Below are positions 10,252 through 60,078 of a stretch of 64,000 nt of DNA, one piece after another. This DNA is from Conexibacter sp. SYSU D00693 (GTDB taxonomy: Bacteria; Actinomycetota; Thermoleophilia; Solirubrobacterales; Solirubrobacteraceae). The stretch is from positions 1,860,001 through 1,924,000 of the forward strand of contig NZ_CP070950.1 in assembly GCF_017084525.1 (NCBI RefSeq). Direction: 5' to 3'. The stretch's first letter is position 1. Each line of letters starts with the position of its first letter. The position numbers and the translations under genes were made by a program. The notes beneath the pieces were generated by a model that saw only the letters and a list, made by a program, of their open reading frames with translations, was not told the origin of the DNA and searched no databases.

Positions 10252-11818
10252 GCCCCTTCCCACCCGGCTCGGGCGGCAAGGTGGGCGACGTGTCCGACTT
10301 GGCGCGTCCCCGCTCACCCTGCCCCGGCGCCGGACCCTGCTCCTCCCGCCCCTGCGACGGGGTCTGACCCCGAGCATGCGACGGGGTCTGACCCCGAGCG
10401 CCGCCCGCCGCCGGATGCGACGGGGTCTGACCCCGAGCAGGACGGCCCCGCTCCTTGCCCTTCCCCCGCTGCGACGGGGTCTGACCCCGAGCATGCGACG
10501 GGGTCTGACCCCGAGCGCCGGAGCGGCCCGGAGCCTGGCCCCGGGCGGGGCGGGCACGGTCCTTGCCCTGGGCCTGCGACGGGGCCTGACCCCGAGCATG
10601 CGACGGGGTCTGACCCCGAGCGCCGCCCGCCGCCGGATGTGACGGGGTCTGACCCCGAGCGTGCGACGGGGTCTGACCCCGAGCGGCCGGGGGGCTGGGG
10701 GTCGGACGCCGGGCCGGCGGGGTGGTGGCCGTGGCGAGGCCGATGGCGAGCGGGGTCGTGGTGGTGGGCGGGCGGTCCGGGCGTGGTGCGTCGGCGACGC
10801 GCGCCGGGCGGTCGCGTGGTGCAGGGTCGGCGGTGACCTCGTCGAGGACCACGGTGCCGCCGGCCGCGCCGGTGCCGAAGGCCGCGACGACGGCGAGGGT
10901 CTTGGCCGCGCCGAGCGAGCCGAGCACGCCGCTGCCACCCGCCGCTGCGCCCGCACCGGCACCGGCGCCCGTCGCCGCCGCTGCGCCGCCCACGCCGCCC
11001 GCAGCACCCACGCCGCCCACGCCACCCACGCCAAGGGCGGAGAGGACCGCGGCGGGCAGGCCGGCGGAGGCACTGACCGGCAGGACCAGGCCGAGCGCGG
11101 CGTCCTGACGGGCCAGGCCGGCGCGGAAGGCGCGACAGCCGGCGCAGCCGCGCAGGTGGCGGCGCAGGGGGCCGCGGCGCAGGGCCGGGCCCGTGGCCGT
11201 GGCGAGCTCGGCGCGGACCTCCTCGCACGGGCGGGCGAGGGCCTCGCGGTCGGCGAGCAGGCGGGCCTTGGCCTGGTAGACGAGCGTCCTCACCTTCGCC
11301 TCGGGGACGTCGAGGACCTCCGCGATGCCGGCGTGGGAGAGGTCGCCGAGCTCGGCGAGGACCAGGGCCGCGCGCTGGTCCTCCGGCAGGCGCCCGACCG
11401 CGGCGACCAGCTCGCGCAGCTCCTCGCGCTGGTGGACGACGTCGCCGAGGCCGGCGAGGTCGGGAAGCTCCGCGTCGACCGGGCCGGCGTCGCGGCGCTG
11501 GGCCAGCAGCGTCCGGCAGCGGTTGCGCGCGATCGCGTAGAGGTAGGGGCGCAGCTCCTCCGGCGGCGGACCGTCCGCGAGCGCGCGGTGCAGGCGCAGG
11601 AAGGCCTGCTGCACGGCGTCCTCGGCCTCGTCGCGCGAGCCCAGCAGGTAGCGGCAGAAGGACAGCAGCCCCGGCTGGTGGCGGGCGAAGAGGACCTCGA
11701 AGGCCCGGTCGTCCCCGTCGCGGACGCGGGCCACGAGCCGCTCGTCGGACAGCAGCCCGAGGCGCCCCACAGGAGCACGCGGACGATCACGGCGACGGAG
11801 TGCGGGCGCAGGCGTCAT
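10244..11818 (-). CDS. ECF-type sigma-70 factor fused to zinc-finger/membrane segment and repeat tail
   Basis: 524 residues from ATG 11818; a GTG six bases upstream would add two residues. Sigma region 2 occupies about residues 20-95 (VRDGDDRAFEVLFARHQPGL, DEAEDAVQQAFLRLHRA) and region 4 about 130-185 (LPEDQRAALVLAELGDLSHA, then LDVPEAKVRTLVYQAKARLL). A zf-HC2-like RRHLRGCAGCRAF near 225 follows, then Gly/Ala linkers and a hydrophobic stretch near 305 (AAKTLAVVAAFGTGAAGG). So the protein looks like a sigma factor with its own anti-sigma-like, membrane-anchored extension. Residues about 380-487 are ARGQTPSH repeats encoded by palindromic DNA. The RTX-like gene overlaps its 3' end by 8 bases and is the likely target. 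Confidence 0.82.
   Translation of the reverse strand: MTPAPALRRRDRPRAPVGRLGLLSDERLVARVRDGDDRAFEVLFARHQPGLLSFCRYLLGSRDEAEDAVQQAFLRLHRALADGPPPEELRPYLYAIARNRCRTLLAQRRDAGPVDAELPDLAGLGDVVHQREELRELVAAVGRLPEDQRAALVLAELGDLSHAGIAEVLDVPEAKVRTLVYQAKARLLADREALARPCEEVRAELATATGPALRRGPLRRHLRGCAGCRAFRAGLARQDAALGLVLPVSASAGLPAAVLSALGVGGVGGVGAAGGVGGAAAATGAGAGAGAAAGGSGVLGSLGAAKTLAVVAAFGTGAAGGTVVLDEVTADPAPRDRPARVADAPRPDRPPTTTTPLAIGLATATTPPARRPTPSPPAARGQTPSHARGQTPSHPAAGGARGQTPSHARGQAPSQAQGKDRARPARGQAPGRSGARGQTPSHARGQTPSQRGKGKERGRPARGQTPSHPAAGGARGQTPSHARGQTPSQGREEQGPAPGQGERGRAKSDTSPTLPPEPGGKGHE
10359..10680. repeat. Nine 13-base palindromes (GGGGTCTGACCCC) inside the sigma-factor gene
   Basis: Perfect copies begin at 10359, 10383, 10422, 10476, 10500, 10605, 10644 and 10668. 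A one-base variant, GGGGCCTGACCCC, begins at 10581. Each copy is a 6+1+6 palindrome embedded in a longer shared unit, GACGGGGTCTGACCCCGAGC. Start-to-start distances are 24, 39, 54, 24, 81, 24, 39 and 24, all multiples of three, so every copy is read in the same frame as ARGQTPS(H/Q). The 39-base step with the same linker (encoding HPAAGG) occurs twice, which points to duplication of a composite block. Confidence 0.95.
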
Positions 11819-40917: not shown

Positions 40918-41024
40918 GCCTGGGCCGGGGTGGCCGCGGGTCGCCGCCCCGTCGTGCGCGGCGCGGGCTGCCGGCGCTGGTCCGGGCGGACGCCCGGGCT
41001 GCGGATCCGGTACGCCTTGTGGGG

Positions 41025-41567
41025 ATGCCCACGCTGCGCGACGCCGCGCGAGCGGCCGCGGAGGACCCCGCGGCCGCGGTCGCCCCGCCCGCCGACCTGC
41101 CCCGCCGCCCCGGGCTCGCCGACCGCCTGCGCCTGCTGCGCGTCCGCCGGCGGGTGGTCGCCGGGCGGGGCGTCGCGGTCGGGCGCGGCGTGCGCTTCGA
41201 GGTCGACCCGGGCGCGCGCGTCGTCCTGGGCGACGGCGTCGTCCTCGGCGACGGCTGTCGCCTGCACGTGCGCGGCGGCGAGGTCGTGGTCGGCGAGGGC
41301 ACCGTCCTCGGCGCCCGCTGCGCGATCGCCTGCCACGCCGGCGTCGTCGTCGGCGCCCGCTGCGTCCTGGCCGACGAGGTCGTCCTCGTCGACGCCGGCC
41401 CGACCTTCGCCGACGCCGAGCGCCCGGTCCGCCTCCAGCCCCTCGAGACCCTCCCGGTCCGCGTCGGCGACGGTGCCCGCATCGGGCCCGGCGCTGTCCT
41501 GGGCCCCGGCACCACGGTGCCACCCGCCGGCCTCGTCGGCGCCCGCGCGACCCTGCCGACGGGATGA
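41025..41567 (+). CDS. Left-handed beta-helix (hexapeptide) protein, acyltransferase-like
   Basis: 180 residues. From about residue 50 onward the sequence cycles through hexapeptide-like turns (GVAVGRGVRFEVDPGARVVL, GDGVVLGDGC, GEGTVLGARCAIACHAGVVV, GDGARIGPGAVLGPGTTVPP), the pattern of left-handed beta-helix acyl- or nucleotidyl-transferases. A His in ACHAGVV could be catalytic, as in O-acetyltransferases. The N-terminal 45 residues are an Ala/Pro/Arg-rich leader. It follows the SGNH gene by 107 bases. A hydrolase/acyltransferase pair on one strand suggests reversible acylation of a glycan, which is an inference. Confidence 0.75.
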   Translation: MPTLRDAARAAAEDPAAAVAPPADLPRRPGLADRLRLLRVRRRVVAGRGVAVGRGVRFEVDPGARVVLGDGVVLGDGCRLHVRGGEVVVGEGTVLGARCAIACHAGVVVGARCVLADEVVLVDAGPTFADAERPVRLQPLETLPVRVGDGARIGPGAVLGPGTTVPPAGLVGARATLPTG

Positions 41568-41708
41568 AAGGTGCCAGGCACCTTCCACCCTCCCCGGTGG
41601 AAAGTGCCAGGCACCTTTCACCGCTGCTCCAGGGCTTCGGGATGGAAAGTGCCAGGCACCTTTCACCGCTGCTCCAGGGCTTCGGGATGGAAAGTGCCAG
41701 GCACCTTT
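41568..41708. repeat. Four GGTGCCAGGCACC-type hairpins, three in 45-base tandem units
   Basis: A perfect palindrome lies at 41568-41584. Three copies of AAAGTGCCAGGCACCTTT lie at 41601, 41646 and 41691, exactly 45 bases apart. Each 45-base unit also contains CACCGCTGCTCCAGGGC, a copy of the last bases and stop codon of the coiled-coil gene that ends at 41708. The array lies between convergent stops, so the hairpins, followed by short T-runs on either strand, could end transcription both ways. Confidence 0.92.
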
Positions 41709-42571
41709 CACCGCTGCTCCAGGGCGTCGCGGCGCTTGCGGGCGTCCTTGGCGGCGGCGCGGGCGGCGCGCAGGTCGTCCTTGGCGCGGCGGAGGGTGGC
41801 CTGGGCGTCCTCGACGGCCTGCTCGGCCTCCTCGACCGCCGACGCCGCGGCCGCCTCGACCTCCTTGGCCTCGCGCAGCTCCTGACGACGGCGCTCCTCG
41901 CGCTCCCGGCGCTCGCGCTCCTCGGCCTCCCTGCGGGCGCGCTCCTCGGCCTCCTGGCGCTCGCGCTCGCGGGCCTCGGCCTCGCGGCGCCTGCGCTCCG
42001 CGGCGGCGTCGCCGCCCTTCGCGCCCTTCTTCGCGGCGCCCTTCTTCGGCGCGCGGGGCTTGGCGCCGGGTGACGGGCGCGCGGGCTTGGCGGGCGCGCT
42101 GACCTCGCCGCCGAAGCCGATCGCCGTGACCTCGCGCTCGAGGCGGCCGGCGGCGACGCGCTCGCGCAGGTCGTCGTCGCCCGCCGCGGCGTGGAGCGTC
42201 GCGCGGACCCGCTCGACCGTCGTCTGGCTCTCCCCCGCCGCCACCGACTGGACGAGACCCTCGACCGCGGCCCGCAGCGCACGCTGCGCGCCGCGCAGGG
42301 CGTCGCCGCCCCCGCCGCCGATCGCCGCCTCCTGCGCCGCGGCGAGCTCCCGGCCCGCGGCGAGCACCGCCTCGAGGTCGTCGCCGCGCTCGCGGGCGAG
42401 GCGGTTGACGAGCCACGCCGCCTGCGAGGGGCGGCGCAGGGCCTTGACCTCGTCCGCGGCGGCGCGGTCACCGGCCTGGCGCAGCTCCCTGGCCAGCGCG
42501 TCGCGGCGCGCGGTGAACTCCGCGGGGTCTGCGGCGTAGAGGTCGTCGAGGGCGTCGGCGTCGGTGCCCAC
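41708..42571 (-). CDS. Hypothetical protein with long C-terminal coiled coil
   Basis: 287 residues from GTG 42571. The N-terminal 145 residues form a compact helical region (LDDLYAADPAEFTARRDALA, LRRPSQAAWLVNRLARERGD) that appears specific to actinobacteria by impression, but no function is known. A Lys/Pro/Ala linker (KPRAPKKGAAKKGAKGG) then leads to a highly charged coil of Arg/Glu heptads ending KDARKRRDALEQR. The start lies 4 bases after the upstream HATPase stop, so they are co-transcribed. The 3' 17 bases, stop included, are duplicated downstream in the tandem repeat array. Confidence 0.75.
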   Translation of the reverse strand: MGTDADALDDLYAADPAEFTARRDALARELRQAGDRAAADEVKALRRPSQAAWLVNRLARERGDDLEAVLAAGRELAAAQEAAIGGGGGDALRGAQRALRAAVEGLVQSVAAGESQTTVERVRATLHAAAGDDDLRERVAAGRLEREVTAIGFGGEVSAPAKPARPSPGAKPRAPKKGAAKKGAKGGDAAAERRRREAEARERERQEAEERARREAEERERREREERRRQELREAKEVEAAAASAVEEAEQAVEDAQATLRRAKDDLRAARAAAKDARKRRDALEQR

Positions 42572-60065: not shown

Positions 60066-60078
60066 GGGGACAGTCCCC
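60066..60078. repeat. Single 13-base palindrome GGGGACAGTCCCC
   Basis: A perfect 6+1+6 palindrome in the 99-base gap between the divergent hydrolase (start 60016) and SNF2 gene (start 60116). It has the same architecture as the palindromes at 10.4 kb and 41.6 kb and may belong to the same mobile repeat class, or may simply be an operator. Confidence 0.6.

Follow-up and report, generated by a model that had tools for sequence, protein, structure and literature searches.

Several described repeat systems come close to the locus reported here. In Pseudomonas fluorescens SBW25, REPINs form ordered clusters, and three REP groups have been distinguished, each with a cluster beside its own RAYT; tandem REPIN clusters that include flanking DNA are also in print in the sections of that report drawn on here (Bertels and Rainey 2011, PMC3116915). 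Tagged REPs and TIRYT-associated repeats are presented in the parts of a second report used here as palindromes that separate convergent or unidirectional genes and are located at their 3' ends, and roles of REPs in termination and in stabilising mRNA are hypothesised there (Di Nocera et al. 2013, PMC3733652). In E. coli, BIME-2 elements consist of several tandem REP units, and some BIMEs took up the 3' end of a rayt, according to the passages cited (Nunvar et al. 2010, PMC2817692). Earlier work, as summarised in the RepRanger paper, reported that an E. coli REP within 15 nt of a stop codon stalls ribosomes (PMC12306157). Neither clusters of tandem REPs that include flanking DNA nor stop codons supplied by REP ends are new: the relevant sections of these reports describe both (PMC3116915, PMC3733652).

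In this work, we analysed a window of 64,000 nt (the whole stretch of DNA under study), to whose positions all locus coordinates refer. The locus of interest lies between two convergent genes. We propose, with a probability of roughly 0.78, that a RAYT-linked REPIN was placed between these genes and that its right half was later duplicated twice together with 15–22 bp of coding DNA. The features are as follows.

41025–41567, + strand: rightward gene, hexapeptide-repeat acyltransferase-like, 180 aa, with the start codon picked from the codon score only (Pfam Hexapep PF00132, 40.4 bits against a cut-off of 27).
41565–41587: REP a, TGAAAGGTGCCAGGCACCTTCCA, whose outer-arm TGA is the stop of the rightward gene.
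41565–41620: REPIN-like pair with a core-to-core distance of 33 bp, presumably the original element, folding as one continuous hairpin.
41568–41707: space between both stops, 140 bp, with REP copies, the pair spacer and copied coding end.
41598–41642: tandem unit 1, with a REP at 41598–41620, the copied coding end to 41635 and the joint TTCGGGA.
41643–41687: tandem unit 2, identical to unit 1.
41688–41732: tandem unit 3, of which 38 bases (41688–41725) are identical, with a REP at 41688–41710 and the native coding end to 41725.
41708–42571, − strand: leftward coiled-coil gene, 287 aa with an assumed GTG start, whose stop TGA at 41708–41710 is the right end of the last REP.

Three near-identical units follow one another at a spacing of 45 bp across 41598–41725, each composed of a 23-bp palindrome and the last codons of the leftward gene. 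A preliminary description of this DNA had claimed three hairpin copies exactly 45 bases apart, and the boundaries of the three units, as well as the period of 45 found by TRF (2.9 copies, 98% match, score 257, array length 132 bp), agree with it. Units 1 and 2 are identical at 45 of 45 positions, and unit 3 matches them at 42 of 45, with no difference in bases 1–38; a chance origin of such an exact 45-bp tandem copy is excluded. In each unit, the 15 bp adjoining the REP correspond to the last five codons of the coiled-coil gene and are followed by seven further bases. The sequence CACCGCTGCTCCAGGGC is found within the window only at 41619–41635, 41664–41680 and 41709–41725, the third copy being the native 3' end of the leftward gene; the coding end was indeed duplicated together with the palindrome, as had been proposed. 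The row of hairpins also lies, as described, between two convergent stops (41565–41567 on the + strand and 41708–41710 on the − strand). The tally of three hairpins holds for the 45-bp units, whose palindromes lie at 41598–41620, 41643–41665 and 41688–41710, but a fourth is present at 41565–41587, with its core 33 bp ahead of that of unit 1. Similarly, each unit does contain the reverse complement of the last codons, but its TGA belongs to the palindrome arm (TGAAAG) and is no separate feature of the gene; the stop of the rightward gene is likewise a palindrome end. Since 45 is a multiple of three, readthrough at any one of them would extend the frame by 15 codons, up to another in-frame TGA. 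What the preliminary description overlooked is that a dispersed, RAYT-associated REP carries the stops of both neighbours, and that the duplicated part is half of a REPIN-like pair plus 15–22 bp of coding DNA. As for the leftward gene product, its N-terminal 153 residues have matches in 20 of 60 other genomes of the family (E ≤ 1e-5), and it has no Pfam match.

Compared with the SBW25 clusters as described in the cited sections (PMC3116915), the repeated unit in the window consists of one REPIN half together with the terminal codons of a gene. The likeness to the tagged REPs, as far as the cited parts of that report describe them, is closer: both lie at 3' ends of convergent genes, both occur as tandem repeats that take in flanking DNA (whose length varies in the tagged REPs), both can form alternative complementary stems, and RAYT-like genes flanked by other inverted repeats, some of them with GGGGWSAS, are found there as with the RAYTs of the present host (PMC3733652). 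However, tagged REPs carry an unpaired GTAG or CGTC tag, which the window family does not, and the stop codon at their termini is often TAG, whereas at the window locus it is TGA, supplied by both ends of a single palindrome or pair (PMC3733652). Like the BIMEs in the passages cited, the array combines tandem REP units with a gene 3' end that was drawn in; unlike them, the gene is no rayt, and the units are direct copies of one REP and not alternating REPs (PMC2817692). Among open-licence papers containing the letters GTGCCTGGCAC or GTGCCAGGCAC, none is, by its title, about bacterial repeats; and in the open-licence literature, mostly as judged from listings, we recognised no description of this palindrome or of TGA at both ends of one REP. 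The window locus is a clear case in which a small hairpin repeat gives two genes their stops and then pulls coding sequence into a tandem array.

The palindrome core GTGCCAGGCAC occurs in 98 copies, grouped in 73 clusters, in the 4.43-Mb genome, against 4 copies of the reversed-letter control. These 98 are exact core matches taken from 70 stretches, with copies of changed core uncounted; since copies were selected by exact core match, the invariance of the core is no argument for or against any reading. The family is nearly absent from six congeners, in which the core counts are 0, 2, 1, 0, 0 and 1 (reversed-letter controls 3, 1, 2, 1, 0 and 3; three of these genomes are 65–81% complete), and the count is at most 10 in every other genome among the 61 examined, host included. 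A local origin of the palindrome, which we had considered, is ruled out by the 98 genome-wide copies. The element measures about 23–25 bp, with a consensus of about TGRAAG-GTGCCAGGCAC-CTTYCA. Arm positions 1–4 are Watson–Crick paired in 84, 88, 84 and 60 of the 98 copies, exceeding the independent-column expectations of 62.6, 59.4, 63.1 and 42.7, and position 5 has no excess (92 against 92.2); the 98 copies that entered this count are related to one another, with tandem duplicates among them, and the count is uncorrected for relatedness. Neither the unpaired GTAG nor the unpaired CGTC tag of the classic REP superfamilies is present, and conservation fades about equally on both sides after 7–8 bases. 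Gene calls made by our own codon-score script, independently of any annotation, place 26 of the 73 clusters in convergent intervals (two 3' ends), 28 in intervals bounded by one 3' and one 5' end and 6 in divergent intervals (two 5' ends); 11 are intragenic, and 2 adjoin a called gene on just one side. Altogether 54 clusters are intergenic with at least one gene 3' end facing them. Most clusters have a single exact core. Where cores are paired, a spacing of 33 bp is the commonest and is seen at 10 places in the genome; the window pair is the only one that was folded.

The genome encodes three Y1-transposase genes, each flanked on both sides by its own distinct palindrome. For the RAYT gene of the GTGCCAGGCAC family, a copy lies upstream, and a variant core, GTACCTGGCAC, lies downstream within the 3' end of the gene. 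The second gene is flanked by GGGGTCTGACCCC (88 genome copies, control 0) and the third by GGGGACAGTCCCC (38 genome copies, control 0). The NCBIfam model of the REP-associated tyrosine transposase (NF047646) is the best match of all three, at 82.2, 66 and 75 bits, and only the first, that of GTGCCAGGCAC, passes its cut-off of 80 bits. Beyond the host genome, 3 of 9 loci with RAYT homologues (L187, L188 and L190) have one palindrome on both sides, of the GGGGTCAGACCCC type in two of them and ACGTCCAGGACGT in one, and the other 6 are without. The window palindrome is a RAYT-associated REP, a kind of element held to be mobile. With three coexisting RAYT/palindrome pairs, one of them expanded here but not in six congeners, the genome would be well suited to a test of RAYT specificity.

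The arms of the family often coincide with stop codons. Of 196 arms, 62 start with TGA, and in 37 of these 62 the triplet coincides exactly with the in-frame stop of the called gene next to it. Both stops are supplied by REP ends at 12 of the 26 convergent sites, the window locus included, with one of the 24 genes involved scoring weakly. We compared REP-stopped proteins with their congener counterparts for 10 genes in 26 comparisons, of which 12 were longer, 1 equal and 13 shorter in the host (differences from −9 to +7 residues). That the REP truncates genes, another candidate, is rejected in view of the lack of net shortening in these 10 comparable genes. The mean absolute end difference per gene was larger for REP-stopped genes (1.0–6.0) than for genes with the stop outside the REP (0–6.0), but not significantly so (Mann–Whitney p = 0.13). 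This comparison drew on 45 loci (30 + 15) out of more than 150 matches, with 10 of 15 REP-stopped genes (all 15 joined in one query) and 8 of 8 controls usable; matches below 42% identity were dropped, and orthology was assigned by best match, without a tree. We regard it as doubtful that the palindrome inserts preferentially at TGA stops, its arms thereby forming a two-way stop-plus-hairpin module, and that RAYT-linked processing also makes copies of a REP plus a coding end. Such a preference is favoured by the 12 of 26 sites that use both REP ends and by the absence of net shortening, but is weakened because random insertion followed by selection for in-frame stops would look nearly alike. 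If shown, insertion at TGA stops would help to explain why the repeats build up exactly at gene ends.

These data enable us to propose a putative course of events for the window locus. We take 41565–41620 as the original element, because 33 bp is the commonest pair spacing and the pair folds as one hairpin. Initially, a RAYT-linked REP, in the form of an inverted pair of 56 bp, would have landed precisely where the 3' ends of the acyltransferase-like and coiled-coil genes converge, and the outer TGA triplets of the pair would have become the stop codons of both neighbours; transposition driven by the RAYT is likely here. Later, a 45-bp stretch consisting of the right REP and the end of the coiled-coil gene would have been tandemly duplicated twice, probably via hairpin-assisted replication slippage at a short microhomology. 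Slippage or recombination had been suggested before, and slippage is plausible: CCGG just ahead of unit 1 and GCGG at the end of unit 3 share a 3-bp CGG at the presumed breakpoints, such that slippage there would yield a unit of exactly 45 bp. The 7-bp joint speaks against the simplest form of the process. TTCGGGA matches the native GTCGCGG at 4 positions and differs at 3, identically in both extra units, so simple slippage does not predict it; we favour slippage as the mechanism only somewhat. The window is not the only place where a gene end was copied. Gene 3' ends are reiterated beside the REP at three loci, namely the window locus (L031, score 19), L026 (score 13, stretch of 41 bp) and L059 (scores 13 and 10, stretch of 44 bp), the window copy being the least diverged; scores of at least 10 were reached by 4 of 76 gene ends and by 3 of 903 swapped-gene controls. 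Coding-end copying therefore occurred more than once in the GTGCCAGGCAC REP family.

An alternative order of events starts from a single REP as the ancestor of all four palindromes. The 45-bp duplications would then have taken both gene tails, and unit 1 would later have lost 12 bp, yielding the 33-bp spacing. In its favour, the joint TTCGGGATG bears a resemblance to the rightward gene's own end ACGGGATG, and by eye it fits somewhat better than under our main reading; moreover, the unit counted by hand from that CGGGA to the leftward gene's CCAGGGCGT is likewise 45 bp. However, the resemblance is short and at chance level (145 of 903 controls attain its score of 5), the loss of 12 bp would have had to arrive by chance at the commonest pair spacing in the genome, and in the first two palindromes the outer as well as the inner arms show the pairing of a REPIN. 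We therefore consider this order of events unlikely.

It is also conceivable that the hairpin is a local terminator of convergent genes, duplicated for stronger bidirectional termination, and that the dispersed repeats are immobile terminators kept for their function. The 26 of 73 clusters between two 3' ends, the covarying arms, by which the hairpin itself appears to be kept, and the strong fold of the pair are all in line with this. Yet functionally kept terminators would not be expected to drop to control level in six congeners, the palindrome flanks a RAYT gene, no U tract was found, and 6 clusters sit in divergent intergenic regions, with 11 more inside called genes; we judge a terminator origin quite improbable. 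Short tandem units that hardly differ are well known to be miscounted, which might suggest an assembly artefact with a different true unit number. Such an error looks unlikely, because the genome is a single 4.43-Mb contig and a diverged arrangement is seen at two other loci (L026 and L059); the array is, besides, only 132 bp long, and the chance that the unit number is wrong appears very small. A RAYT-linked REPIN with a twice-duplicated right half remains our preferred reading.

At the RNA level, the pair at 41565–41620 has a predicted fold of −41 kcal/mol (z −8.8), matched by none of 200 shuffles. On its own, the 23-nt hairpin has little predicted stability (−6.4 kcal/mol, z −0.97), and the advantage of the three-unit array over its shuffles is only moderate (z −2.4 and −3.1). 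A search of 41000–42300 for intrinsic terminators (a GC-rich hairpin followed by a U run) found 0, shuffles giving 0.3, and the identification of the element as an intrinsic terminator was rejected for want of a U-tract hairpin in this range. Over the same range, 8 Rfam matches had E values of up to 1, and none attained the gathering score of its family; 6 of these sub-threshold matches are microRNA models fitting the hairpins (best E 0.0084). If active, the row of hairpins would most likely act as an mRNA 3'-end structure that blocks exonucleases, lowers readthrough towards the opposing gene or delays ribosomes at the stop codon. Judged from the DNA, such an effect would be the likeliest function, and we put it forward tentatively; the array may also have no function at all. 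Like the E. coli REPs in the cited account, the window REP lies within 15 nt of a stop, a range reported to lower translation, but here the stop is inside the REP (PMC12306157).

The two genes are also neighbours in two congeners. In G001 they are convergent with a 90-bp gap that contains no core. In G002 they are again convergent without a core, the acyltransferase match, split over two frames, ending 70 bp from the coiled-coil stop. The locus lies on a short contig in G003, and the second gene was not found in the examined stretch of G006. The coiled-coil homologues of four congeners are 46–54% identical, and at this divergence an empty site cannot be read at the DNA level. From these comparisons, the element most likely arrived in the host lineage.

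Some minor observations concern related palindromes. The 23-bp palindrome TGRAAGGTGCCAGGCACCTTYCA (L163–L183) is found as well in Mesobacillus persicus, M. maritimus, Bacillus massilionigeriensis and Rossellomorea aquimaris, the genome collection yielding 22 matches spread over 21 stretches; its arms in these species are TGG, except for one TGA without an open frame ahead. Some copies of GGGGTCAGACCCC (L085, L088, L090 and L091) have longer arms that end in TGA/TCA at apparent gene ends, as in the GTGCCAGGCAC family. Among the RAYT-like genes, the coding ends of L050 (the first) and L075 continue through the downstream palindrome, and the L074 gene stops inside its own. The RAYT gene of the GGGGTCTGACCCC family lies at G000:286115–286894. 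Within the window, eight GGGGTCTGACCCC copies form direct arrays at 10353–10680, with spacings of 24 bp and longer. Arrays of the same palindrome at L077, L079, L083, L086 and L092 apparently run in frame through genes, the coding score being positive on both sides, and 50 of 59 spacings in this family (site 4330390 left out) are multiples of three, the spacings within one array being not independent. Finally, one copy of GGGGACAGTCCCC lies in the window at 60066–60078, a position derived from its genome coordinate.
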